DNA from: Paracoccaceae bacterium
GTDB lineage: Bacteria; Pseudomonadota; Alphaproteobacteria; Rhodobacterales; Rhodobacteraceae
Direction: 5' to 3'
Assembly: GCA_003561595.1 (NCBI GenBank)
Contig: PWWF01000303.1
Location: forward strand, 1-17,621
DNA length: 17,621 bases
The translations under genes and the position numbers were made by a program. Positions 2,135 through 17,621 of this stretch are shown in pieces. Numbering within the stretch: position 1 is the stretch's first letter; the number at the start of each line of letters is the position of its first letter. The notes beneath the pieces were generated by a model. That model ran no database searches. It was not told the origin of the DNA and saw nothing but the letters and a program-made list of their open reading frames with translations.

Positions 2135-2416
2135 ATGCCCCATCATCCCGCACAAGCGCCGGGCGCGCTGCGCAGTACGCATCTGCGCGCCTTCATCTAC
2201 GCCGACAGCCTCAAGCCCGGTCGCCCTGCCCTTCTGCGCCACCCGCCCGAGGCCATCGCCCAAGCCCTGACGCAGCTTTCCAGCGAAGAGGCCGCGCGCT
2301 GCCTCGCGCTCTTGCCCGCAGGTGTGCAGATCCCGGTTGCCGTGCGGCTGGACCGGCTGACGCGCGCGCGACTGGCGCGCGACTGGCGCGCGACTGTGCA
2401 GATTGGTTCGGGGTGA
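2135..2416 (+). CDS. Stand-alone protein resembling an MgtE N-terminal domain
   Basis: ATG at 2135 follows an excellent AAGGAGGG (2122-2129). The 93-residue product contains, at about residues 36-75, HPPEAIAQALTQLSSEEAA followed by a second helix ending in RLDRL. This pattern (HP-x-x-IA-x-x-L-x-x-L-x-x-EE-x-A-x-x-L-x-x-LP) is typical of the MgtE N-domain superhelix, which in MgtE sits before the CBS pair and binds Mg2+. The neighbouring mgtE lacks exactly this domain, so this protein may supply it in trans, or be a remnant of it (inference). The last residues are read through three copies of an 11-bp repeat, each in a different frame, so the C-terminus depends on copy number. No other family suggests itself. 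Confidence 0.6.
   Translation: MPHHPAQAPGALRSTHLRAFIYADSLKPGRPALLRHPPEAIAQALTQLSSEEAARCLALLPAGVQIPVAVRLDRLTRARLARDWRATVQIGSG
2364..2396 (+). repeat. Three perfect tandem copies of an 11-bp unit
   Basis: GCGCGCGACTG occurs at 2364-2374, 2375-2385 and 2386-2396. It lies in the 3' end of the MgtE-N-like gene. Eleven is not a multiple of three, so gain or loss of one copy would change the reading frame and C-terminus. Confidence 0.95.
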
Positions 2417-2507
2417 TCCCGGTCCTGCGCGCCTTTCAGGTTTCGGTTGCATCGCATGGCATGGCAGGTCAGATGACCCCTGTGGGCCGCGTGTAGGGAC
2501 AGGGCGC

Positions 2508-3650
2508 ATGACAGTTTCGCCAGAGATGACAGAGGCCACCGCCCTGCGCGACAAGCGTCGCGCGGCCTGGGCCGGGGTGGTGATGAATGGCCCGCTGGCG
2601 GCGGCCAAGATCATCGCGGGGCTTGCCGCCCATAGCCAGGCACTGGTCGCCGACGGGGTGCATTCGCTGTCGGATCTGGCCTCGGACGCGGCGGTGATCT
2701 GGGCGCTGGGGCATTCACACCGCCCGCCCGATGCCGACCACCCCTTCGGCCATGGCCGGTTCGAGACGCTGGCGACACTGGCCATCGCGGCGATGCTGGG
2801 GTTGGCTGCGCTGGGCATCCTGATCGATGCCGGCGCACGGCTGCTCGATCCGCCGCGCGCGGCACCGGGGCTGCTCGCGCTCTGGGTGGCGGGGCTGTCC
2901 ATCGCAATGAAAGAGGGGCTGTATCACTACACCCGCGCAGTGGCCCGGCGCACGGGCTCGGCCATGATGGCCGCGAATGCCTGGCACCACCGGTCGGATG
3001 CGGCGACCTCGGTCGTGGCGCTGGCGGGGATTGGCGCGGCGATGCTGGGCGCGCCCTGGGCCGATGCGCTGGGCGCGGCGATCATCGCGCTGATGCTGGG
3101 CCGGGTCGCGCTGCATTATGGCCGCCCCGCGATCCGCGAACTGGTCGATACCGCCCCGCCCGCAGAGATGTCCGACCAGATCACCGCCGCGCTGATCGCC
3201 ACGCCCGGCGTGCGCGATGCCCATGACCTGCGCCTGCGCAACATGGGCGGCAGCATTCAGGCCGATGCGCATATCACGCTCGATCCCGCGATGACCCTGT
3301 CCGAGGCCCATCGCCTGTCAGAGGCCGCGCGCAGCGCGGTTCTGGAACAGGTGCCCGATGTGACCGAAATCGTCATCCACCCCGAACCCGATGGCCATGC
3401 CGATGGCCCCGCCGCCCATGATGCCGCGCTGCGCCCCGAACTCGCGCAGGTCGTGCGCGACTGCCTGCAGGGGCAGGTGCCCGAGGGCGCGATCCGCGAT
3501 CTGCGGCTCGATTACCGCGATGACGGGGTGGTGGCCGTGGTCGAATTGCATGTCGAACCCGCCGAAGGGGTGCAGGCGCGGGTCGCGGAACGACTGCGGC
3601 AGGCAGGCAGCGACCTCTCGGAAATCCGCCTGCTCTGGGCGCCGCCCTGA
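2508..3650 (+). CDS. Cation diffusion facilitator (CDF) transporter with two C-terminal domains
   Basis: ATG at 2508 has AGGGA about ten bases upstream; 380 residues. CDF proteins are proton-coupled inner-membrane exporters of Zn2+, Mn2+, Co2+ or Fe2+ that act as dimers. Helix 2 carries ADGVHSLSDLASD with His52 and Asp56, and helix 5 carries NAWHHRSDA with His160 and Asp164, giving an HxxxD/HxxxD site. A usual ferredoxin-like cytoplasmic domain spans about 215-292 and ends VTEIVIHPEP. An acidic, His-containing linker then leads to a second similar domain at about 305-378 (LRLDYRDDGVVAVVELHVEP). Common bacterial CDFs are near 300 residues, so the extra 80 residues are unusual. The gene is codirectional with the mgtE genes upstream and the mgtC-like gene downstream. 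The transported metal cannot be decided from sequence. Confidence 0.92.
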   Translation: MTVSPEMTEATALRDKRRAAWAGVVMNGPLAAAKIIAGLAAHSQALVADGVHSLSDLASDAAVIWALGHSHRPPDADHPFGHGRFETLATLAIAAMLGLAALGILIDAGARLLDPPRAAPGLLALWVAGLSIAMKEGLYHYTRAVARRTGSAMMAANAWHHRSDAATSVVALAGIGAAMLGAPWADALGAAIIALMLGRVALHYGRPAIRELVDTAPPAEMSDQITAALIATPGVRDAHDLRLRNMGGSIQADAHITLDPAMTLSEAHRLSEAARSAVLEQVPDVTEIVIHPEPDGHADGPAAHDAALRPELAQVVRDCLQGQVPEGAIRDLRLDYRDDGVVAVVELHVEPAEGVQARVAERLRQAGSDLSEIRLLWAPP

Positions 3651-4456: not shown

Positions 4457-5374
4457 ATGAGCGATTTCAGCACTGACACTGGCGCCCCGCACCCGTTCGG
4501 GGCCTGGTTGGGCACGGGTAACCGCGCCCATAAACTGCTGGTGGCCATCGGATCACTGATCACGAGCATCGTGCTGACGATGGGCAAGCTGGTCGTGGGC
4601 CTGCTGTCCGGCTCGCTCGCGCTGGTGGCAGATGCGCTGCAGGGGCTGATCGATATTGTCGTGACCGGGATCACCGTGCTGGTGGTGGGCCAGTCCGATC
4701 GCGGCGCCGATCCCGCCTGGACCTGCGGGCGCGAGAAATTCGAGGTCATGGCCGCGCTGGCCGAGGCGCTGCTGCTGGCCGTGATCGCCGTGTTCATCTG
4801 GCATCTGGCCGCGATGAAACTGGTGCACGGCACCCCCGCCATAGAGATCGAGGCCTGGTATCTGATCGCCGCCCTGACAGCGGCAGCAGCGGATTTCATC
4901 CGCCATCTGATCGTCAAGCGCGCCGCACGCGCGACCGGGTCCATGGCGCTGGCGGCCAATGCCGCGCATTTCCTGACCGACTCGCTGGGCACTGTGCTGG
5001 TGACGCTGGGGCTGTTGGGGGCATGGTATGGCTGGCCCGTGGCCGATACGCTCGCGGCTTTGGGCGTGGCGGCATTGCTCAGCTATACCTCCTTCGCTGT
5101 CGGGCGCCGCGCCATCGGCATGCTGCTGGATCGCACGGACCCTGACCTGTCGCTGGCTGTGCTGGAACGGATCGAGCAGGCCCCCGAGATCGCAACCATC
5201 CGCGCCCTGCGCATCCGCCGGATGCCCGACCGCTATCTGGTCGATCTGCGCGCCGATGCCCGGATGCAGGATCTGCAGGATATCGCACGGATCGAGGCGC
5301 TGCTGTCCGAGCAGATCATTGTGCTGCTTGGTCCGACCGATCTGGTCGCCGCCCTGCGCCCCTGCCCACTCTGA
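4457..5374 (+). CDS. Cation diffusion facilitator (CDF) transporter
   Basis: ATG at 4457, 305 residues, 62 bases after the mgtC-like stop and on the same strand; no strong Shine-Dalgarno sequence is visible. The CDF fold is shown by six hydrophobic segments, GSLALVADALQGLIDIV in helix 2, NAAHFLTDSLGTVLV in helix 5, and a short cytoplasmic domain from about residue 225. The metal-site positions read Gln62/Asp66 and His171/Asp175, so the usual Asp or His at the first position is Gln. It is only distantly similar to the CDF at 2508, so it is not a recent duplicate. It probably exports a divalent metal or an unusual substrate; specificity is unknown. It is the last gene of the plus-strand metal block. 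Confidence 0.9.
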   Translation: MSDFSTDTGAPHPFGAWLGTGNRAHKLLVAIGSLITSIVLTMGKLVVGLLSGSLALVADALQGLIDIVVTGITVLVVGQSDRGADPAWTCGREKFEVMAALAEALLLAVIAVFIWHLAAMKLVHGTPAIEIEAWYLIAALTAAAADFIRHLIVKRAARATGSMALAANAAHFLTDSLGTVLVTLGLLGAWYGWPVADTLAALGVAALLSYTSFAVGRRAIGMLLDRTDPDLSLAVLERIEQAPEIATIRALRIRRMPDRYLVDLRADARMQDLQDIARIEALLSEQIIVLLGPTDLVAALRPCPL

Positions 5375-6776: not shown

Positions 6777-7712
6777 ATGCAGAACGCCGAAGACATCTTT
6801 CGCGAGATCGACCTGACCCGCGCGCCGACCGAGGCCGAGTGGCTGGCACGGCTGGACGAGATCGGGGACGAACTGGGGGCGTTCACACCGCTGGGGCAGG
6901 ACCATGTCGGGTTCTTTGCCGATGGGGACAACACGCTTCTGGTCAGTTTCGAAAGCGTCGCCGATATCCGCACGCAGCGGCCCGATCAGCGGCCCCTGGG
7001 GCTGACGATTGCGCTGCGGCATGGTTGGTCGAACCTGACCATGCTGGCGCGCGCGCCCCGCTGGTATCGCGATACCGAGGTGCTGGAATTCTTCGACGCC
7101 CAGATCGATTCCGCATTCTTCGACAGTTTCTCGCGCGTGCTGTTCTATGGCGCGGGCATGGGGGGCTATGCCGCTTGCGCCTTCAGCCTGGCCGCACCGG
7201 GTTCGACCGTGCTGGCCATCGCCCCGCAGGCAACGCTGGACCCCGCCATCGTCCCGTGGGAACGCCGCTTTCGACGCGCGCGACGGCTGGAGTTTCGCAG
7301 CCGCTTCGGCTACGCGCCCGACATGCTCGAAGGGGCGCGCAATGCGTTCATCGTCTATGACGGCGCGCGGCGCAGCGACGCAATGCATGCGGCCTTGTTC
7401 CGCCAACCCTTTGTCACGCTGCTGCGCAGCCCGGCGCTGGGGCGCGATACAGGGCAGGCGCTGGCGCGGATCGGGGCGCTGGATACGCTGATCGAGACTG
7501 CGGCGCGCGGACGCATGACGCCCGAGCGATTCCATGACCTGATGCGCAAACGCCGCGATGACCCCGCCTATCTGGACGCGCTGGTCCGGCGCTGCGTGCA
7601 GCGCCGCCATCCGGCGCTGACGGTTGTTGCCGCGCAAGCGGCACTGGCGGCGCGCCAAGGGGATGACCCGTCACACCCTGACATGCAGGAGCAGCTTGAA
7701 CTGAGTGATTGA
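6777..7712 (+). CDS. Alpha/beta-hydrolase-like protein lacking the nucleophile Ser
   Basis: 311 residues from ATG 6777, with GAGGGG (6760-6765) upstream. The segment [23 protein letters not shown] (residues 121-143) has the form of the nucleophile elbow of alpha/beta hydrolases (G-x-S-x-G-G, strand-turn-helix), but the nucleophile position, residue 127, is Gly. The following [12 protein letters not shown] is typical of the next strand in such proteins. This suggests a catalytically dead or repurposed hydrolase fold, cytoplasmic (no signal peptide). The C-terminal 60 residues are Arg-rich helices. It lies 65 bases upstream of pyrC on the same strand and may be cotranscribed, but no link to pyrimidine synthesis is evident. 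I do not recall a firm name for the family; automated annotations may differ. Confidence 0.8.
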
Positions 7713-7777
7713 GCGCGCCCTGCCTTTTGCAAAAATCCGACTGGAACAGCGCGCGCGCATTCGCTAGGACAACGGAC

Positions 7778-8821
7778 ATGACCCGTTCGCTGACCCTGCC
7801 CCGCCCCGATGACTGGCATCTGCACCTGCGCGATGGTGCCATGCTTGACGGGATCGCCCCGGAAAGCGCGCGCCATTTCGCGCGCGCGATCATCATGCCA
7901 AATCTGGTGCCGCCTGTCGTGACCGGCGCGCAGGCCGCCGCCTATCGCGACCGTATCCGCGCGGTCGCGGGGCCGGATTTCACGCCCCTGATGACGCTCT
8001 ATCTGACCGAGTCCACGGACCCTGCCGATGTCGTCGCCGCGCATCGCGACGGGATCATCACGGCCGTCAAGCTCTATCCGGCGGGGGCGACCACCAATTC
8101 CGCCAGCGGCGTGCGCGATTTCGACCGCGTGCGCGGTGTGCTGGACGCGATGGCCGAGGCCGGCATCCCGCTTCTGACCCATGGCGAGGTCACGGATCCC
8201 GAGATTGACATTTTCGACCGCGAGGCCGTGTTCATCGACCGCGTGCTGGACCCTATCCGCCGCGCGACACCGGGGCTGCGCGTGGTGATGGAACATATCA
8301 CCACATCCGACGCCATCGCCTATGTGAACAGCCAGCCCGACGGGCTGGGTGCCACGATCACCACGCATCATCTGGTCATCAACCGCAACCATATCCTGGT
8401 CGGCGGCATTCGTCCGCATTACTACTGCCTGCCTGTCGCCAAACGTGAAAGCCATCGTCAGGCGCTGGTCGGGGCCGCGACCTCGGGCGATGCGCGGTTC
8501 TTTCTGGGCACGGACAGCGCGCCCCATGCCGATGACGCCAAGGAATCGGCCTGCGGCTGCGCGGGCTGTTTCACGGCCACGAACACCATGTCGATCCTCG
8601 CGCAGGTGTTCGAGGATGCGGGCGCGCTGGACAAGCTGGAAGCCTTTGTCGCGCGCAATGGCCCCGGTTTCTACCGCCTGCCCGTCAACAGCGCGACCAT
8701 CACGCTGGAAAAGACCGACAACCCCGTCACCTACCCCGACAGGATCGACACTGGCGCGGGCCCGGTCACGGTGTTCGACCCCGGCTTCCCGCTCTACTGG
8801 CAGGTGGCGCAAGCAGGCTGA
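7778..8821 (+). CDS. pyrC: Dihydroorotase (PyrC, class II)
   Basis: 347 residues, close to the usual 345-350 of E. coli-type PyrC. The enzyme interconverts carbamoyl-aspartate and dihydroorotate, step three of pyrimidine synthesis, in the cytoplasm with a binuclear Zn site. All expected metal ligands are present: His14 and His16 in DDWHLHLRD, the carboxylated Lys98 in [14 protein letters not shown], His135 in LLTHGEV, His173 in VMEHITT, and Asp246 in [10 protein letters not shown] 7778 is chosen because it starts right before the conserved [12 protein letters not shown]; an AGGAC lies upstream. pyrE follows after 82 bases, so the two form a pyrimidine pair. Confidence 0.97.
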
Positions 8822-8866
8822 ACAGAACACCCTGTGCTTCATCTTGCCAAAAATACTCACTTTCCC

Positions 8867-8883
8867 GGCCCGCGCATCGGGCC
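8867..8883. repeat. Small hairpin in the pyrC-pyrE gap
   Basis: GGCCCG (8867-8872) and CGGGCC (8878-8883) form a 6-bp stem around CGCAT, 20 bases before the pyrE ATG. Just upstream is the phrase TTCATCTTGCCAAAAATACT (8838-8857), A/T-rich and unlike its surroundings. No T-run follows the hairpin, so termination is unlikely. Confidence 0.35.
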
Positions 8884-8903
8884 AGACGCCTGAGAGGACC
8901 GCC

Positions 8904-9572
8904 ATGATCCCTGCCACCTATCCTGACCGCGCCACTGTCGCGCGCCTGACCGCGCGGATGCTTCTGGACATAAAGGCCGTGCATTTCAACGCGGCCGAGC
9001 CCTTCACCTTCGCCTCCGGGCTGCAGGCCCCCACCTATATCGATTGCCGCAAGCTGATCAGCTTTCCGCGCATCCGTGCCGCGCTCATGGATTTTCTGAC
9101 CTGCCGCGTGATGGAAGATGCGGGGTTTGAAGCGTTCGACAATATCGCAGGCGGTGAGACAGCGGGCATTCCCTTTGCCGCGCTGGTGGCCGAGCGGATG
9201 GCCCTGCCGATGAGCTATGTGCGCAAGAAGCCCAAGGGCTACGGGCGCAATGCCCGGATCGAGGGCGCGATGTCCGAGGGGCAGCGTGTGCTGCTGGTCG
9301 AGGATCTGACCACTGATGGCGGATCGAAGCTCAGCTTTGTCGATGCGATCCGCGAGACCGGGGCCAGTTGCGCCCATACGGCGGTGATCTTTTACTATGG
9401 CATCTTCCCTGAAACCGAGCCGCGTCTGGCCGAACATGGGGTGCGCCTGCACTATCTGTGCACCTGGTGGGATGTGCTGGCCGAAGCGCGGCGCGGCGAA
9501 GATTTCGACGCGGGCACGTTGGACGCGGTCGAGGGGTTCCTGCGCGCGCCGCGCGACTGGCGCGCCAGCTAA
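8904..9572 (+). CDS. pyrE: Orotate phosphoribosyltransferase
   Basis: 222 residues from ATG 8904, with GAGAGGA (8892-8898) as ribosome site. The enzyme joins orotate to PRPP to give OMP. The PRPP-binding loop [13 protein letters not shown] is at residues 129-141, the catalytic flexible-loop region [10 protein letters not shown] at 105-114, and the substrate-binding [16 protein letters not shown] at 35-50. Length is normal for the family. It follows pyrC on the same strand. Its stop (TAA 9570-9572) overlaps the mmcB stop on the other strand (TAG on minus, 9571-9569), so the two convergent genes share CTAA. Confidence 0.97.
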
Positions 9573-10033
9573 CCCCCGACCGACATGGCCGCAGGGTCCA
9601 TCTGGCGCTGCAGCCGCCAGGCCGACTGGCGTGCAAAAGCGCGGGTCAGCGCCTTGCGCCGCGCCGGGGCCAGCCGCGCCTCGGACGCCATGCGCATCAG
9701 TTCGGCGCCATAGCTGTCGCCCAGAAACAGCCCTGCATCCTCTGGCAGCAACTCAGTCGGGAAATCGGGGGAAACGGCCCAGAAGAACCGGTCGCACCAG
9801 TCCAGATAGCCCTGCCATTTCTGGTCCGACTGGAAATCCGCGCGGCTGGATTTGCACTCTATCACCCAGACCTCGCCCCCCGGACCCAGCGCCATCACAT
9901 CGACCCGCAGCCCCCGCGCGGGCACGAATTCCACCAGCGGCGCAAAATCCATCGAGGCCAGGCACCGGCACACGCCGCGGGCCAGTTCGGCACCGGGCGT
10001 CAGGGCTGGCGAGGGGCTTGTATCACTGCGCAT
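9569..10033 (-). CDS. mmcB: MmcB-family DNA repair protein, PD-(D/E)xK nuclease-like
   Basis: 154 residues starting at ATG 10033. A longer in-frame start at 10075 would run the gene through the SOS box, so the shorter one is preferred. The core [21 protein letters not shown] (Asp45, Glu59, Lys61) is a PD-(D/E)xK nuclease-type motif, followed by [20 protein letters not shown], typical of the MmcB family (PF06319). MmcB of Caulobacter is SOS-induced and needed for resistance to mitomycin C (established knowledge); the product would act on DNA in the cytoplasm. A GTTC-N7-GTTC LexA site lies 11 bases upstream of the start, consistent with SOS control here. Function is inferred from the family and the operator. 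Confidence 0.92.
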
Positions 10034-10044
10034 GGGGCAAGTGT

Positions 10045-10059
10045 GAACAATAAGTGAAC
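10045..10059 (-). promoter_or_regulatory. LexA (SOS) box of mmcB
   Basis: On the minus strand GTTC-ACTTATT-GTTC (10059-10045) is an exact match to the alphaproteobacterial SOS box GTTC-N7-GTTC. It is 11 bases before the mmcB ATG, where LexA binding would block transcription. It could also influence the divergent promoter at 10076-10104. Confidence 0.85.
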
Positions 10060-10075
10060 ACAGGTCAAGCGTCAC

Positions 10076-10104
10076 TTGCAGAGCGGGGGCATGCGTCCTA
10101 TCTG
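10076..10104 (+). promoter_or_regulatory. Predicted promoter of the 6S-like RNA
   Basis: TTGCAG (10076-10081) and TATCTG (10099-10104) are separated by exactly 17 bases. The predicted start, about 10111, is the base just before the outer stem GGCAGG of the candidate RNA. Confidence 0.5.
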
Positions 10105-10110
10105 TGGATC

Positions 10111-10272
10111 AGGCAGGTTCTGCTCTTCGCGTGCGTGGCCCTTTTCCAGTGGCCGATAAGTTTGTCCGAGGGAGCTGGCTCTGGCGGGGTCCTGGCCTCG
10201 TTATCTGGCGCCCACCTGATGTTTCAGGCTCTCGGGAAATTCACGCCACCACGGTCGCTGCGGGCCTGCCGA
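10111..10272 (+). ncRNA. ssrS: Candidate 6S RNA (about 160 nt)
   Basis: The interval has no supportable protein and folds as one rod. The ends pair (GGCAGG 10112-10117 with CCTGCC 10265-10270). CGTG-C-GTGG near 10130-10138 pairs with CCACCACG near 10247-10254. A large unpaired region follows (CCCTTTTCCAGTGGCCGATA side against GGGAAATTCACG), then CCGAG-GG-AGC near 10166 pairs with GCTCTCGG near 10228, and an apical stem GGCGGG/CCCACC closes it with one mismatch. A closing stem, central bubble and apical stem in about 160 nt is the 6S RNA plan, which mimics an open promoter and binds sigma-70 RNA polymerase. A promoter is correctly placed. Identity as 6S is inference; a different structured RNA is possible, and a near-mirror fold also exists on the minus strand. 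The 3' end lies next to the stop of the convergent gene. Confidence 0.55.
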
Positions 10273-10274
10273 CT

Positions 10275-10580
10275 TTATCCCCTGTCGGATATGCGCACCG
10301 GAACCGGGTCAAACCCGCGCACGGGCATGCCGCGATCATCGTCGTCATCATCATCGTCGTCATACCCCATCCGCATGATGCGAATGGCGAATTGTACCCC
10401 GGCAAAAACCAGCCCGTTGAAGAAAAAAATCAGGAACAGACCCAAGAGACCATCATTCGACCCAAGCAATAGCCCGCGCAGCCCGACGATGTCGAAATAG
10501 ACAAGCAACGCTGTGAACACGGCCGAGAGGGCGAAACCAATGGCGACTTGTTGGATATATACCTTGATCAGCTTGGGCAT
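10275..10580 (-). CDS. Small two-helix inner-membrane protein with poly-Asp tail
   Basis: 101 residues from ATG 10580, with GGAGG directly upstream (minus strand); earlier in-frame starts lack a ribosome site. Two hydrophobic helices (about residues 11-30 and 42-66) are followed by nine consecutive Asp (74-82) encoded by a GAC/GAT run at 10335-10361, then a 19-residue basic tail. The acidic run is probably cytoplasmic or surface exposed and could bind cations, but no function is known to me. The run is a trinucleotide microsatellite, so its length may vary between strains. It follows the TIGR02186 gene by 94 bases and may be a separate unit. Confidence 0.75.
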   Translation of the reverse strand: MPKLIKVYIQQVAIGFALSAVFTALLVYFDIVGLRGLLLGSNDGLLGLFLIFFFNGLVFAGVQFAIRIMRMGYDDDDDDDDDRGMPVRGFDPVPVRISDRG

Positions 10581-10590
10581 GACCGCCTCC

Positions 10591-10607
10591 GTTGCTATAC
10601 ACGCAAC
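10591..10607 (-). promoter_or_regulatory. Inverted repeat over a possible -10 element
   Basis: On the minus strand GTTGC-GTGTATA-GCAAC overlaps TATAGC, which lies 17 bases after a TTCAGG. It ends 10 bases upstream of the ATG at 10580, so it may be the promoter and operator of the small membrane protein. Confidence 0.3.
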
Positions 10608-10674
10608 AGAGTAACCCCTGAACGCACAGCGACAAGCCTTGTCTGCGCCCTGCGGCAATGTCTCGCGCAGGCGA

Positions 10675-11427
10675 TCAGCGCATCAGACGGAATGCGGCAG
10701 ACGCGCCCCAGCCGAAAAACACTGCCAAGCCAAGTGCCAGCAGGCCATAGAGGAACGGTTGCTGATAGGCGAGGTTGAACAGCCAGCGTTCCAGCACGGC
10801 CTTTTGCACATCGATCACGGTTTCAAACACGTCGATCACGTCGCCCTCGCGCACCAGAAAGACCCGCGCGGCATAGCGCCCTTCAACGATGTTCTTGGGC
10901 AGGGTCATCCGGGTGGAAAACAGCGTGTCGCGTTCCAATGCCACCGCGTTTTCGCGGCTTTGATACAGACCCTCATCCTCGCGAATACGGATCAGCGCTT
11001 CGGTAAAGGCAGCCGGGTCGCGGGCCTCGGGCGCGGTGCGCGCCTCGAATATCGCGAGCCGGGTCGAAATGCGATGCGTCAGATCGGCGTCAGGTGACAG
11101 GATGTCGCGCAGCGGCGCGGTCGAGGCGACCGCGTAGTAGCTGGGTGCGGCGCGGACCTCCTGGCTTTCGGTATTCACCCAGATGCCCGCGCGCCGCGCC
11201 TTGCGCCAGATCACCGCCGGAAGGGGCGGCCCCTCGACCGAGATCACCACATCCAGCGGCCCTTCGGGCAGAGGGCCGTCGCGGCGCACAGCGCCATAGA
11301 TCAGGATTTCCGATCCCTCGAAATTCACGGTCAGCGACACGCGGTTCTGGCTGAGCCCGGCAATCACCTCTTCGCCGCGCGCAGGAAGGGCCGCGAGCAT
11401 CAGCAGGATGATCACAAGCACCCGCAT
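10675..11427 (-). CDS. TIGR02186 / Alph_Pro_TM family membrane protein
   Basis: 250 residues. A cleavable signal peptide (MRVLVIILLMLAALPARGEE, cut near residue 18) is followed by a periplasmic domain of about 200 residues and one C-terminal helix (about 224-244), so the bulk sits in the periplasm anchored to the inner membrane. The opening VIAGLSQNRVSLTVNFEGSE and the IYGAVRRDGPLP segment are typical of this alphaproteobacterial family, whose function is unknown. Its ATG overlaps the stop of the TauE/SafE gene by one base (TGATG), the usual partnership for this family, so the two probably act together in export of a sulfur compound or similar anion (inference). It is the last gene of the tightly packed minus-strand set. 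Confidence 0.88.
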   Translation of the reverse strand: MRVLVIILLMLAALPARGEEVIAGLSQNRVSLTVNFEGSEILIYGAVRRDGPLPEGPLDVVISVEGPPLPAVIWRKARRAGIWVNTESQEVRAAPSYYAVASTAPLRDILSPDADLTHRISTRLAIFEARTAPEARDPAAFTEALIRIREDEGLYQSRENAVALERDTLFSTRMTLPKNIVEGRYAARVFLVREGDVIDVFETVIDVQKAVLERWLFNLAYQQPFLYGLLALGLAVFFGWGASAAFRLMR

Positions 11428-12375: not shown

Positions 12376-13341
12376 CTAGTGTTCCTTGACATAGGGCGTG
12401 CCGACCGCGCGCGGCGGGATGGCCTTGCCCACGAACCCTGCCAGAATGACCACGGTCAGGATATAGGGCAAGGCCTGCATGGCCTGCACCGGCAGGCTTA
12501 CCCCCAGAATCTCGATGCTCTGAAACCTGTTGGCCACAGCTTCCAGGAACCCGAACAGCAGAACCGCCCCCATCGCGTGCCAGGGCCGCCATTTGGCAAA
12601 GATCATGGCCGCCAGCGCGATGAATCCGCGCCCTGCTGTCATCTCCTGCACGAATCCGGCCGCGAGGCCCGTGGACAGATACGCCCCCGCCAGCCCGCAC
12701 AACACGCCCCCGATCGCGACCGCGCCGTAGCGCAACCCCACGACCGATATGCCGGCCGTGTCCACCGCTGCCGGGTTTTCACCCACAGCGCGCAGCCGCA
12801 GACCAAAGCGCGTGCGGAACAGCATGAACCATGTCAGCGGCACGCAGAGGAACGCCACATAGACCAGCAGTGCGTGGCCCGACAGGATGCCGCTATAGAT
12901 TGGCCCCAGCACCGGCACATCGCGCACCGCATCAGCAAAGGGCAAGTCGATCCGCGCCATCCGCCCCCCGCCCGACAGCGAAGGCGTGCGCCCCCCCTGG
13001 CTGAACCAGTTCTGCGCGACCACCACAGTCAGCCCGGCGGCCAGAAAATTGATCGCCACACCCGAGATCAGCTGATTGCCCCGGAACGTGATCGCGGCCA
13101 CCCCGTGCAAGAGCGATATCCCGACCGAGGCCACAATGGCAGAGGCCACGCCCAGCCAGACATTACCCGTCGCATAGGCGATGGCAGCCGCCATGAAGGC
13201 GGCGGCGAGCATCTTGCCCTCCAGCCCGATATCGAACACGCCGGCACGCTCCGAGATCAGCCCCGCCAGACAGGCGAACAGCAAGGGCGTGGCCAGCCGC
13301 AATGTCGAGCCCAGGATCTGAACCACCATGACCCAATCCAT
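12376..13341 (-). CDS. ABC transporter permease, BMP/nucleoside type (second permease)
   Basis: 321 residues and about nine hydrophobic segments. The motif SERAGVFDIGLEGKML (residues about 30-45) and the loop GENPAAVDTAGI (about 206-217), which contacts the ATPase, are characteristic of the BPD_transp_2 permease that pairs with BMP-family binding proteins (YufQ/NupQ-like). Such systems import purine nucleosides or related solutes. It starts within the stop of the first permease gene (one-base overlap, TGATG), so translation is coupled. Assignment to the family is firm; the substrate is inferred. Confidence 0.93.
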   Translation of the reverse strand: MDWVMVVQILGSTLRLATPLLFACLAGLISERAGVFDIGLEGKMLAAAFMAAAIAYATGNVWLGVASAIVASVGISLLHGVAAITFRGNQLISGVAINFLAAGLTVVVAQNWFSQGGRTPSLSGGGRMARIDLPFADAVRDVPVLGPIYSGILSGHALLVYVAFLCVPLTWFMLFRTRFGLRLRAVGENPAAVDTAGISVVGLRYGAVAIGGVLCGLAGAYLSTGLAAGFVQEMTAGRGFIALAAMIFAKWRPWHAMGAVLLFGFLEAVANRFQSIEILGVSLPVQAMQALPYILTVVILAGFVGKAIPPRAVGTPYVKEH

Positions 13342-14444
13342 CAGCGCCCCCTTGCCCTTGCCTGTGCGAACAGCCGCGCGATCGGTATGCGCACCATATT
13401 GTCCAGCGCGCCGGTGAACAGGATCACCAGCGCCTGTATTACCACGATCAATTCACGCGGGATGCCGGTCCAGAGCGCAAGCTCTGCCCCGCCCTGATAC
13501 AGGAACCCGAACAGGATCGCGGCCAGAAACACCCCGAACGGATGGTTGCGCCCCATCAGCGCCACGGCAATGCCGATAAAACCCGCCCCCTCGACCGCGT
13601 TCAGAACAAGGCGCTGTTGTTCACCCAGCACCGAATTGACCGCCATCAGCCCCGCCAGCGCGCCCGAGATCAGCATGGCATAGATGGTGATGCGCGCGGG
13701 GCTGATCCCGGCATATTCCGCTGCAGGCTCGGATTCGCCAAAGGCGCGGATCTGATAGCCCAGCCGCGTGCGCCACAGCAGATACCAGACGACAAAGCAC
13801 ATCGCGACCGCGATCAGCAGCGAGATGTTGACGGGCGGCACCCGGCTGAACGGGATACCGACCAGCGCGAGGATCTCATGCAGGCTGGGCAAGGCCGTTT
13901 CCGGTGGAAAGCGGGGTGAACTTGGATCCTGCGTGCCCTGCGGGCGCAGCACATTGACCAGCATATACCCCAGCAGCGAGGCCGCAATGAAGTTGAACAT
14001 GATCGTCGTGATGACGATATGACTGCCGCGTTTCGCCTGCAGCCAGCCGGGGATCAGCGCCCAGAGCGCGCCAAAGACCGCACCCCCCAGCATCGCCCCG
14101 ACCAGCGCCAGCGTCCAATGCGGCCAGGGGATATAGAGGCACACCAGCGCCACCCCCAGGCCGCCCACCAGCGCCTGCCCCTCGCCCCCGATATTGAACA
14201 GACGCGCCTGAAAGGCCACGGAAACGGCCAGCCCCGTGAACATGAAATTGGTGGCGTAATACAGCGTGTAGCCCCAGCCATAGCTGGACCCGAACGCCCC
14301 CTCGACCATCAGTTTCACAGCCTCCCACGGGCTTTCGCCGATGGCCCAGATCAGGATGGCAGAGATCATGAAGGCCAGCGCGACCGACACCAGCGGCACC
14401 AGCGTCACATCGGCCCAGTCGGGGATGCGTCCCTTCGCGCTCAT
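13341..14444 (-). CDS. ABC transporter permease, BMP/nucleoside type (first permease)
   Basis: 367 residues with about nine hydrophobic segments. It carries FNIGGEGQALVGGLG (about 83-97) and the coupling loop GESEPAAEYAGIS (about 232-244), the counterparts of the motifs in the second permease, and is of the YufP/NupP type. The two permeases would form the heterodimeric membrane channel. Its ATG overlaps the ATPase stop by four bases (ATGA) and its stop overlaps the next ATG by one base. No oddities are seen. Confidence 0.93.
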   Translation of the reverse strand: MSAKGRIPDWADVTLVPLVSVALAFMISAILIWAIGESPWEAVKLMVEGAFGSSYGWGYTLYYATNFMFTGLAVSVAFQARLFNIGGEGQALVGGLGVALVCLYIPWPHWTLALVGAMLGGAVFGALWALIPGWLQAKRGSHIVITTIMFNFIAASLLGYMLVNVLRPQGTQDPSSPRFPPETALPSLHEILALVGIPFSRVPPVNISLLIAVAMCFVVWYLLWRTRLGYQIRAFGESEPAAEYAGISPARITIYAMLISGALAGLMAVNSVLGEQQRLVLNAVEGAGFIGIAVALMGRNHPFGVFLAAILFGFLYQGGAELALWTGIPRELIVVIQALVILFTGALDNMVRIPIARLFAQARARGR

Positions 14445-15994
14445 GTCATGCCTGCCATCAACAGCCCCAGTTCCTGCGCATTCGTCTGATCGGACTGCCG
14501 TTCGCCCATGATCCGGCCATCAAACATGACCGCAATCCGGTCCGAGAGCGCCAGAATCTCATCCAGCTCTACCGACACCAGCAGAATGGCCGAGCCCTGA
14601 TCCCGCAGCCGGATCAACTGCTGGTGGATGAATTCGATCGCGCCAATATCGACCCCGCGCGTGGGCTGGCCGACCAGCAGGATCTCGGGGTTGCGCTCCA
14701 TCTCGCGGGCGAGGACCAGCTTCTGCTGATTACCGCCCGAAAACCCTTCGGCCTGCAGCAGCGGGTCGGGGGGGCGCACATCGAAATGCTGCATCTTGGC
14801 TTCGGTGTCGCGCATGATGGCGGCGTTGTTCATGCGCAGCGGCCCGGCGTTATAGGCCGCATCATGGTGATAGCCGAGCGCCATGTTCTCCCAGGCCATG
14901 AAGCGCAGCACCAGCCCGCGCCGATGTCGGTCCTCGGGCACATGAGCGACGCCCTGCCTGCGCCGCGAAATGGCGCCCGCGCCCGGACCGGCCAGCGGCA
15001 GATCCTCGCCCCTCAGTTGCGCCTGCCCTTCCGCGTCGCGCAGCCCGGCCAGCACCTCCAGCAGTTCCGACTGCCCGTTGCCCGCGACCCCGGCGATCCC
15101 CAGTATCTCGCCCGCGCGCACGTTCAGGGATATGCCGCGCAACCGCTCCACCCCCTGACTGTCCACAACGCGCAGATTATCGACCTGCAGCACGATCTTG
15201 CCGGGGCGCGCGGGTGGTTTTTCCACCCTGAGCAGCACCTTGCGGCCCACCATCAACTCGGCCAGTTCCGTGGGGCTGGTCTGGGCCGTGGGGCGGGTGG
15301 CCACCATCTCACCGCGCCGCATGACGCTGACATCATCGGTGACATCCATGATCTCGCGCAGCTTATGCGTGATCAGGATGATGGTCTTGCCCTGATCCTT
15401 CAGTCCGCGCAGGATGCGAAACAGATGATCGGCCTCGGACGGGGTCAGCACGCCGGTCGGTTCATCCAGGATCAGGATATCGGCCTCGCGATAGAGCGCC
15501 TTGAGGATCTCGACCCGCTGCTGATGGCCGACCGACAGATCCTCGACCTTCGCATCCGGGTCCACATTCAGTTCGAACTCGCGCGCCAGATCCTTCAAAA
15601 GCCCCCGCGCCCGCGACAGCGAGGGGCGCAGCATGCCCCCGGCCTCGGCGCCCAGGATGACATTCTCCAGCACGCTGAAATTCTCGACCAGCTTGAAATG
15701 CTGGAACACCATGCCGATGCCCGCCCGGATCGCGGATTGGCTGTCAGGGATCTCGGTTGCCTGCCCGTTGATCAGGATCTCGCCCGCATCGGCGCGGTAG
15801 AACCCATAAAGGATCGACATGAGCGTCGATTTGCCCGCGCCATTCTCGCCCACGATCCCGTGGATCGTGCCGCGCCGCACCTGGATCGAGATATCCTTGT
15901 TGGCCTGCACCGGCCCGAACGCCTTGGAGATGCCACGCAATTCGATCGCGTAATCAGTGGTCTGTGCCCGGGGCGATATGTCAGTGGCCGTCAT
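14441..15994 (-). CDS. ABC transporter ATP-binding protein, double cassette (BMP/nucleoside type)
   Basis: 517 residues, two nucleotide-binding domains in one chain. NBD1: Walker A GENGAGKST (49-57), Q-loop Gln98, signature LSVGHQQRVEI (153-163), Walker B ILILDEPT (173-180), His210. NBD2: the Walker A Lys is replaced (GVAGNGQSE, 302-310), signature FSGGNQQKL (418-426), and the Walker B Glu is Gln (ILLVGQPTRGVD). A degenerate second cassette is normal for the RbsA/YufO-like group, so only NBD1 is expected to be fully catalytic. Its ATG is six bases after the binding-protein stop, and it overlaps the permease gene by four bases. The protein powers uptake from the cytoplasmic face. Confidence 0.95.
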   Translation of the reverse strand: MTATDISPRAQTTDYAIELRGISKAFGPVQANKDISIQVRRGTIHGIVGENGAGKSTLMSILYGFYRADAGEILINGQATEIPDSQSAIRAGIGMVFQHFKLVENFSVLENVILGAEAGGMLRPSLSRARGLLKDLAREFELNVDPDAKVEDLSVGHQQRVEILKALYREADILILDEPTGVLTPSEADHLFRILRGLKDQGKTIILITHKLREIMDVTDDVSVMRRGEMVATRPTAQTSPTELAELMVGRKVLLRVEKPPARPGKIVLQVDNLRVVDSQGVERLRGISLNVRAGEILGIAGVAGNGQSELLEVLAGLRDAEGQAQLRGEDLPLAGPGAGAISRRRQGVAHVPEDRHRRGLVLRFMAWENMALGYHHDAAYNAGPLRMNNAAIMRDTEAKMQHFDVRPPDPLLQAEGFSGGNQQKLVLAREMERNPEILLVGQPTRGVDIGAIEFIHQQLIRLRDQGSAILLVSVELDEILALSDRIAVMFDGRIMGERQSDQTNAQELGLLMAGMT

Positions 15995-16000
15995 GTTCCC

Positions 16001-16996
16001 TCAGAATTCCGGGCAGGTGCTGTCGCTGCGATAATCATGCACACTGATCTCGCCCGCGATGATGGCGGCCTTTGCCGTCTCGACCGCTTCGACCATGTCA
16101 TCCGAGATCAGGTGTTCGTTATGCTCATCCACGGCATAGCCGACACCGCCTGCGGCCAGATCCATCTGCGCGATCCCGGTTTCCAGCCCCGGGCCTTCGG
16201 CAAAGGCGTCATAGACGGCCTGATCGACCAGTTTGAGCATCGAGGTCAGGACAGAGCCGGGATGCAGGTGGTTCTGGTTCGAATCCACCCCGATGGAAAA
16301 TACCCCTTCATCCGCGGCGGCCTGCATCACGCCAAGGCCCGTGCTGCCTGCGGCGGCGAAGATCACGTCCGAGCCCTGGCTGATCTGACCAAGCGCGATC
16401 TCGCTGCCGCGAACAGGATCGCTCCAGGCGGCAGGGGTATCGCCGGTGTAGTTCACGATCACCTCGATATCCGGGTTCACGGCGCGCGCGCCCTGCGCAT
16501 AGCCGCAGGCCGTGGCGGTGATCAGCGGGATCTGCATGCCGCCCACAATGCTGATCGTATCGCTTTGGGTCGTCATGGCAGCGATCATGCCGACCAGATA
16601 GGCGCCCTCATGCTCGGCGAAGATGACCGAGCGGACATTGGGCTGCTCCACCACCGCGTCGATCAGCACAAAGGCCGTATCGGGGTATTCGGGCGCGACC
16701 TCTTCCAGCGTGGGGGCATTCTCGAAGCCCAGAACGACAATGGGGTTGGCGCCGGATTCAGCCAGACGACGGGCGAATTGCACGCGCTGCGCGGCCGATT
16801 GCATCTGGATCTCGCGGTAACTGCCGCCTGTTTCCTCGCGCCAGCGTTCCGCCCCGTTAAAGGCCGATTCGTTGAAGGATCCGTCGAATTTCTCACCCAG
16901 ATCGAACATCAGCGCGGGGCTCGTGTCGGCCTGCGCGCCCAGTGCTGCGACAAAGGTAGCACACAGGCTGACAGGCAGCGACTTGCGGATTGCCAT
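16001..16996 (-). CDS. BMP-family (PnrA-like) periplasmic solute-binding protein
   Basis: 331 residues. A Sec signal peptide is seen (basic MAIRK, hydrophobic core to about 20, AQA before Asp24), without a lipobox. The mature protein begins ALMFDLGEKFDGSFNESAFNG, the typical BMP/PnrA opening, and contains GSDVIFAAAGSTGLGVMQAA and GVDSNQNHLHPGSVLTSM, the ligand-pocket regions of the family. BMP proteins bind purine nucleosides and similar solutes in the periplasm and deliver them to the permeases encoded downstream. ATG 16996 has GGAG in the expected place on the minus strand. A close paralogue precedes it; over 159 comparable C-terminal residues I count about 25 differences. Confidence 0.95.
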   Translation of the reverse strand: MAIRKSLPVSLCATFVAALGAQADTSPALMFDLGEKFDGSFNESAFNGAERWREETGGSYREIQMQSAAQRVQFARRLAESGANPIVVLGFENAPTLEEVAPEYPDTAFVLIDAVVEQPNVRSVIFAEHEGAYLVGMIAAMTTQSDTISIVGGMQIPLITATACGYAQGARAVNPDIEVIVNYTGDTPAAWSDPVRGSEIALGQISQGSDVIFAAAGSTGLGVMQAAADEGVFSIGVDSNQNHLHPGSVLTSMLKLVDQAVYDAFAEGPGLETGIAQMDLAAGGVGYAVDEHNEHLISDDMVEAVETAKAAIIAGEISVHDYRSDSTCPEF

Positions 16997-17132: not shown

Positions 17133-17621
17133 TCAGAATGCCGGGCAGGTGCTGTCTGTGCGGTAGTCATGCACCGTCATCTCGCCCGAGATGATCGCGG
17201 CGCGTGCTTCCTCGACTGCTTCCGACATCTCGGCGCTGATCAGATGCTCGTTATGCTCATCCACCGCATAGCCCACGCCCTCGGCGGCCAGATCCATCAA
17301 CACCACCCCGGTTTCCAGCCCCGGGCCTTCGGTAAAGGCATCATAGACGGCCTGATCGACCAGTTTCAGCATCGAGGTCAGCACCGATCCGGGATGCAGG
17401 TGGTTCTGGTTCGAATCGACCCCGATGGAAAACACGCCTTCATCCTCGGCGGTCTGCAACACACCCAGCCCGGTGCCGCCCGCCGCCGCGAAGACGACGT
17501 CAGAGCCCTGGCTGATCTGGCCCGATGCAATCTCGCTGCCGCGCACGGGATCGTTCCACGCCTCGGGCGTGGAGCCGGTGTAGTTCACGATGATCTCGAT
17601 ATCGGGGTTCACGGCGCGCGC
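17133..17621 (-). CDS. BMP-family solute-binding protein, paralogue (5' part beyond window)
   Basis: The frame enters from the right edge, and 162 C-terminal residues are visible. They align without gaps to the neighbouring binding protein: GVDSNQNHLHPGSVLTSM and MLKLVDQAVYDAF are identical, and both end in the same HDYR-x-DSTCP-x-F. The pair arose by tandem duplication. A second periplasmic binding protein probably widens the substrate range of the same permease complex (inference). A GTG at 17612 is internal (ARAVNPDIE matches the paralogue), so it is not the start. 136 bases with three palindromes separate the two genes. Confidence 0.93.
   Translation of the reverse strand, partial: ARAVNPDIEIIVNYTGSTPEAWNDPVRGSEIASGQISQGSDVVFAAAGGTGLGVLQTAEDEGVFSIGVDSNQNHLHPGSVLTSMLKLVDQAVYDAFTEGPGLETGVVLMDLAAEGVGYAVDEHNEHLISAEMSEAVEEARAAIISGEMTVHDYRTDSTCPAF

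Follow-up and report, generated by a model that had tools for sequence, protein, structure and literature searches.

A gene almost certainly encoding 6S (SsrS) RNA, ordinary but easily overlooked, between mmcB and a convergent small-protein gene in a Rhodobacteraceae genome

What is encoded by an unlabelled interval of about 159 nucleotides that lies between the divergent DNA-repair gene mmcB and a convergent gene for a small protein? The question is raised by a stretch of 17,621 nucleotides from a Paracoccaceae bacterium (contig PWWF01000303.1; the whole stretch that was analysed is referred to here as the window), in which a first-pass annotation, made from the letters alone, had proposed a 6S-like RNA. 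The comparative evidence makes the identity of this interval as 6S close to certain, and it almost certainly is the single 6S (SsrS) RNA gene of the genome, with a role at RNA polymerase that would be the one known for the family. It is therefore a gene of a known kind, ordinary but easily overlooked, and an interval of the window that carried no label is now given an identity. Judged by the names of the closest relatives of MmcB and of the convergent protein, the host is a Roseinatronobacter/Natronohydrobacter-type member of the Rhodobacteraceae: among the named loci (the best 80 of 564) the closest MmcB, 93% identical, comes from a Rhodobacteraceae metagenome genome and the next-closest loci are mostly named Natronohydrobacter, while relatives of the convergent protein are named Roseinatronobacter and Natronohydrobacter. 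Many members of this genus are haloalkaliphilic.

When the region 9900–10450 (551 bases) was scanned by E-value, the Rfam model RF00013 matched positions 10114–10270 of the plus strand over its full length (model positions 1–187), with 41.8 bits and an E-value of 4e-7. Among all Rfam families, 6S alone had a meaningful E-value in this region, the two further matches, with E 3.9 and E 6.7, being no better than chance. The proposed identity is thus upheld by the search in Rfam, albeit with a score 4.6 bits short of the curated gathering cut-off of RF00013 (46.4 bits), which is a threshold set by the curator and not a biological feature; a scan of the whole window at curated cut-offs listed zero RNAs. 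A 6S RNA is expected to be encoded by one gene per genome, and in the 3,308,399 bases of the assembly (440 contigs, completeness 100) RF00013 gave this one match at E ≤ 10, with an E-value of 5.8e-7. A clear 6S gene elsewhere in the genome, which had been named as the observation that would speak against the proposal, does not appear at that threshold.

Scores below the cut-off are also found among the relatives. Within the genus, 19 of 23 relatives have a match to RF00013, three of them above the cut-off, and three of the four relatives that do not match it are recognised by R1, a family-specific model built from 67 sequences. The curated score cut-off omits most 6S matches in the Rhodobacteraceae sample: in a search run with strict filters, RF00013 matches 182 of the 198 genomes at E ≤ 0.1, and the score reaches the cut-off in 45. 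As far as the model cut-off is concerned, the earlier remark that annotation often misses 6S thus holds; in 137 genomes a match is present and none is above it. R1 recovers 6S in six of the 16 family genomes that RF00013 does not match, which brings the total to 188 of 198, and the remaining ten, several of them rated more than 95% complete, have no 6S by either model. The window itself, which was in the training set of R1, is scored by that model at 160.3 bits, against 41.8 with RF00013. In one genome, 82% complete, 6S is matched over its full length twice, on different contigs (G047:C260 and G047:C266; L252 and L251, respectively), either as two copies or through a mixed assembly.

The predicted fold of the interval is the rod that had been described for it, with paired ends, a central bubble and an apical stem, and its outer stem spans 10112–10270. 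Folding energy alone (-70.6 kcal/mol, z = -1.24) is not beyond chance, given that 24 of 200 shuffles fold equally well, and this modest z, together with long plus-strand open reading frames at 10054–10500 and 10104–10472 that overlap the interval, is what could be said for the idea that there is no RNA gene here and that the letters hold a coding stretch or a chance structure. The alignment of 67 sequences makes that idea hardly credible. Its consensus structure consists of 36 pairs in five helices; standard pairs occupy 98.0% of the cells, and pair-preserving two-sided changes are found at 15 pairs, in four of the five helices. Such changes fill 152 cells, against a shuffle mean of 37.4, and none of 500 shuffles, which ignore kinship, reached any of the five measures. 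When the partner was slid by one column pairing fell to 55.5% or 45.9%, a comparison in which the consensus structure is favoured by having been derived from the same alignment. In addition, the relatives show gaps whose lengths are not divisible by three, and the E-value to 6S also argues against a coding or chance origin. The architecture expected of 6S, that is, a conserved closing stem, an open central bubble and an apical stem, is present. Taken together, the full-length E-value with RF00013, the covariation in the 67 sequences and the conserved -35 and -10 islands of the promoter place the 6S call above chance.

Within the central bubble, the 3' strand is predicted to form a small hairpin as well. 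Across the 67 sequences 97.0% of its cells are paired. All 24 double changes fall at a single pair, three of the five pairs are invariant and hence uninformative, and shuffles equal the hairpin on two measures. This hairpin is an alternative to the inner closing pairs, and the two compete. A published study (PMC8414754) mentions, in its text and in the titles that it cites, a hairpin at this place and a conserved hairpin that takes part in release.

Upstream of the RNA, the promoter hexamers that had been proposed, TTGCAG and TATCTG, occur exactly where they had been placed (10076–10081 and 10099–10104), and a start at 10111/10112 fits the claim that transcription would begin one base ahead of the outer stem, which begins at 10112. 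Counted with a script that picks the best pair of hexamers, and that therefore favours agreement, the TTG of the -35 element is found in 20/20 genus, 117/126 family and 11/14 class loci (the latter from other families), the TA of the -10 element in 19/20, 124/126 and 13/14, and a spacer of 17 in 19/20, 118/126 and 12/14, respectively. A 60% consensus taken over the 70 nt ahead of 6S in the genus, with no search for pairs, consists of the islands AACA, GTCAAG, CTTG.A, GC..CCTAT.T and GG; the first can be read as the margin of the LexA box, the second as the -35 element of mmcB on the opposite strand, and the rest as including the -35 and -10 elements of 6S. Reading the family loci in that fixed register leaves only CC.TT and a single C at 60% or more ahead of the RNA, because spacing varies. 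A strict E. coli-type promoter scan found no site here, the promoter being weak by the E. coli consensus. One match in the genome and a conserved promoter are the two features of a single-copy 6S gene with its own promoter.

The other end of the gene is less clear. A terminator scan of both strands of 9950–10700 listed no terminator-like site. TTTT is enriched in the 22 nt at and after the end of 6S (4/20 genus, 25/126 family and 5/14 class loci, compared with 8/500, 133/3150 and 27/350 comparison windows, respectively), yet it forms no conserved tract, and an intrinsic terminator after 6S was rejected as a candidate. As none was found, the 3' end of 6S is left unexplained; this counts against the 6S reading, as do the score below the Rfam cut-off, the unremarkable folding energy and the weakness of the promoter by the E. 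coli consensus.

Coordinates of the 6S gene, its elements and the adjacent features in the window
Feature	Position	Strand	Basis
6S (SsrS) RNA gene (almost certain), ~159 nt	10112..10270	+	RF00013 match 10114-10270, fold, covariation, sole genome match
mmcB, divergent SOS-type DNA-repair gene, 154 aa + stop	9569..10033	-	PF06319 MmcB-like, E 1e-46
LexA box GTTCACTTATTGTTC of mmcB	10045..10059	-	GTTC-N7-GTTC sequence; tracks mmcB
Putative -35 element TTGACC of mmcB	10063..10068	-	GTCAAG island conserved in genus; role by inference
-35 element TTGCAG of 6S promoter (preceding C gives CTTG)	10076..10081	+	conserved island in genus
-10 element TATCTG of 6S promoter, spacer 17	10099..10104	+	conserved island CCTAT.T in genus
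Predicted pRNA start, template U in GGCCGAUAAG	10157	+	sequence features
Hairpin CCUGA/UCAGG, 3' strand of central bubble	10215..10228	+	predicted fold; 67-sequence alignment
Convergent small-protein gene, 101 aa	10275..10580	-	ORF; stop codon 4 nt past 6S match

How the RNA would work can be proposed by analogy with characterised 6S RNAs. The sigma-70-type promoter CTTGCAG-N17-CTATCTG would direct the synthesis of an RNA of about 159 nt, which would fold as a rod that imitates an open promoter. With growth slowing down, this RNA would bind the holoenzyme of the housekeeping RNA polymerase and hold it in check. During outgrowth, the polymerase would copy a short pRNA from the bubble, and the hairpin on the 3' strand of the bubble may help to release it. 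The start of the pRNA is predicted at U10157, at the edge of the bubble (GGCCGAUAAG, 10151–10160): a pRNA begun there would read 5'-AUCGGCC, toward lower coordinates, with GG at positions 4/5 and with A10158 beside the start. These are features expected of a pRNA template, since one study describes GG at positions 4/5 in the pRNAs that have been verified in E. coli, A. aeolicus and R. sphaeroides, and a conserved A immediately upstream of the pRNA start (PMC8414754). Polymerase binding, growth-phase control and pRNA synthesis in this host would be those of the family.

The genes that flank 6S are conserved in part. A divergent mmcB lies within 400 nt of 6S in 18/20 genus, 65/126 family and 0/14 class loci, in a count that used one MmcB query and may therefore miss distant copies. 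Seen from the side of mmcB, 74 of the 80 named loci (the best 80 of 564, some of which share genomes with the training set of R1) have a 6S match, all 74 divergent and three of them cut by a contig end. Among the papers listed, outside the original R. sphaeroides study, no title or opening of an abstract reports 6S beside mmcB, and no claim of priority is made. On the far side of mmcB, a dihydroorotase gene (pyrC type) adjoins a gene with a phosphoribosyltransferase domain (7709–9572, plus strand), and the latter gene runs at its end into the 3' end of mmcB; the two are likely a pyrimidine pair. More distant parts of the window hold two cation-efflux family genes close together (2403–3647 and 4457–5371, plus strand), four genes that resemble a putative vitamin B6 ABC transporter at scores below the NCBIfam cut-offs (12376–16996, minus strand) and a further Bmp-type substrate-binding gene, by Pfam (17133–17612, minus strand).

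The first-pass annotation had also described the promoter region of 6S as shared with the LexA site of mmcB. The box exists, and GTTCN7GTTC is listed as the SOS box of Caulobacter crescentus in a study according to which mmcB is SOS-regulated in that species (PMC9578287), but the box of the window lies outside the 6S promoter, between the putative -35 element and the start codon of mmcB, and it tracks mmcB. The distances are short, with 16 bp between the box and the 6S -35 element, which do not overlap, and the two -35 elements back to back, 7 bp apart; in the 18 genus loci that have the box, its start relative to that of the 6S match is -76, -70 or -69. Such proximity is what would favour a part for 6S in the SOS response, whereby LexA would repress 6S at the shared spacer or transcription of mmcB would compete with it after DNA damage, an arrangement that must be considered very unlikely. 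The survey took in 145 of the 146 loci of the genus and the family. A divergent mmcB lies within 400 nt in 83 of them, and 58 of these have a perfect box no more than 140 nt from 6S; among the 62 others, where 6S is retained, the count is 0. Shuffled sequence gave 55 in 29,000. The other 25 of the 83 comprise ten loci with a box farther up, beside mmcB, and 15 without a perfect box. In seven of the nine loci whose mmcB was found at a distance above 400 nt, the box adjoins mmcB, and two genus loci with no mmcB in view (L062 and L063) keep 6S and have no box. Among named loci, the box is within 140 nt of 6S in 33/71. Moreover, its position relative to 6S varies over the family, and among the genus and family loci it clusters, for instance, in 16 loci at -76 and in 7 at -65; the helical phasing that was considered (p of about 0.03 at 10.5 bp for 30 distinct family positions) is unconvincing and was set aside, eight periods having been tried on related loci. 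Since its occurrence follows mmcB across the loci, the LexA box belongs to mmcB and not to 6S, and control of 6S by LexA was rejected as the main reading; the 6S promoter has no overlapping box conserved together with the gene, as a member of the LexA regulon would have.

On the opposite side, the question is whether 6S also acts on its convergent neighbour. The 101-aa protein has nine aspartates in a row and, judged by eye, two hydrophobic stretches; by this judgement it is probably membrane-bound. It receives no family name from Pfam or NCBIfam and has 278 homologues at E ≤ 0.001. A homologue converges on 6S in all 20 genus loci, with its stop codon within 60 nt of the end of 6S in 19 of them (median 4 nt), and in four of the 20 (L021, L026, L028 and L030) the reading frame runs 46–47 nt into 6S in antisense. 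The frames of these four loci have in common the tail RQARSNRGGVNFPRA, or one near it, presumably owing to the conservation of 6S. According to papers that cite the R. sphaeroides study, the 6S gene of that species is followed closely by a salt-stress membrane-protein gene on the other strand, which is raised in the 6S deletion, and this deletion grows more slowly at 250 mM NaCl (PMC8414754, PMC13414033, PMC8998176); the gene is called sspA in a review (PMC13414033). The use of this name for the convergent gene of the window was rejected, because the two correspond by position only. It is conceivable, though doubtful, that beside its global role 6S has a local one, in which its transcript overlaps the convergent mRNA and the RNA, or the act of its transcription, lowers that mRNA in cis, through antisense pairing or through collision of the two transcriptions. 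The tight convergence in the genus, the antisense frames and the lack of terminator-like sites on both strands point in this direction. Nevertheless, the overlap is not general, for the family has a convergent homologue at 62/126 loci, within 60 nt in 29/62, with a median of 64 and overlap in five (one of these, L141, only since the alignment ran across the stop codon), and the named loci have one within 400 nt of 6S in 45/71; deletion of 6S could affect a neighbour through plain polar effects, and the R. sphaeroides gene is likened to the 101-aa protein by position only. A wider proposal, which seems improbable, is that in this genus 6S is an overlap hub that acts in cis on an osmotic-stress membrane gene and is throttled upon DNA damage through competition with the mmcB promoter; the 3' end of 6S would then be antisense to the end of the salt-stress mRNA and, in the four loci mentioned, to its coding frame as well. 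If it were true, a global regulator of the polymerase would also act in cis on an osmotic-stress gene. The tight convergence in the genus makes an action of 6S in cis on its neighbour open to test.

The preferred reading is that of a single 6S gene whose role at the polymerase would be that of its family. Beyond this label, three things are of use: the scores that fall short of the curated cut-off in the family sample, the conserved order mmcB, 6S, membrane gene, which can serve as an annotation marker, and the tight convergence in the genus. Compared with RF00013, the RNA of the window shares the full-length match (1–187), the closing stem, the large bubble, the apical stem and the hairpin of the 3' bubble strand, and it differs in being shorter (about 159 nt, against a model of 187 positions) and 4.6 bits below the cut-off. 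In Cereibacter ovatus, whose genus now also includes R. sphaeroides, 6S and mmcB are likewise divergent and a LexA box lies at -78, whereas the stop codon of the homologue of the convergent protein is about 366 nt from 6S, against 4 nt in the window. The 6S RNA of R. sphaeroides itself (Elkina et al., 2017, as described in papers that cite it) is similar in belonging to the same bacterial family and in having an opposite-strand membrane-protein gene just downstream; the difference is that 6S and pRNA were measured there, while the gene of the window is known from sequence alone. A more distant counterpart is Ms1 RNA of mycobacteria and other actinobacteria, which, according to two reports, is a 6S-like RNA that also binds RNA polymerase and is distinguished by its binding to the core enzyme and by its occurrence in another phylum (PMC4191392, PMC9130861).
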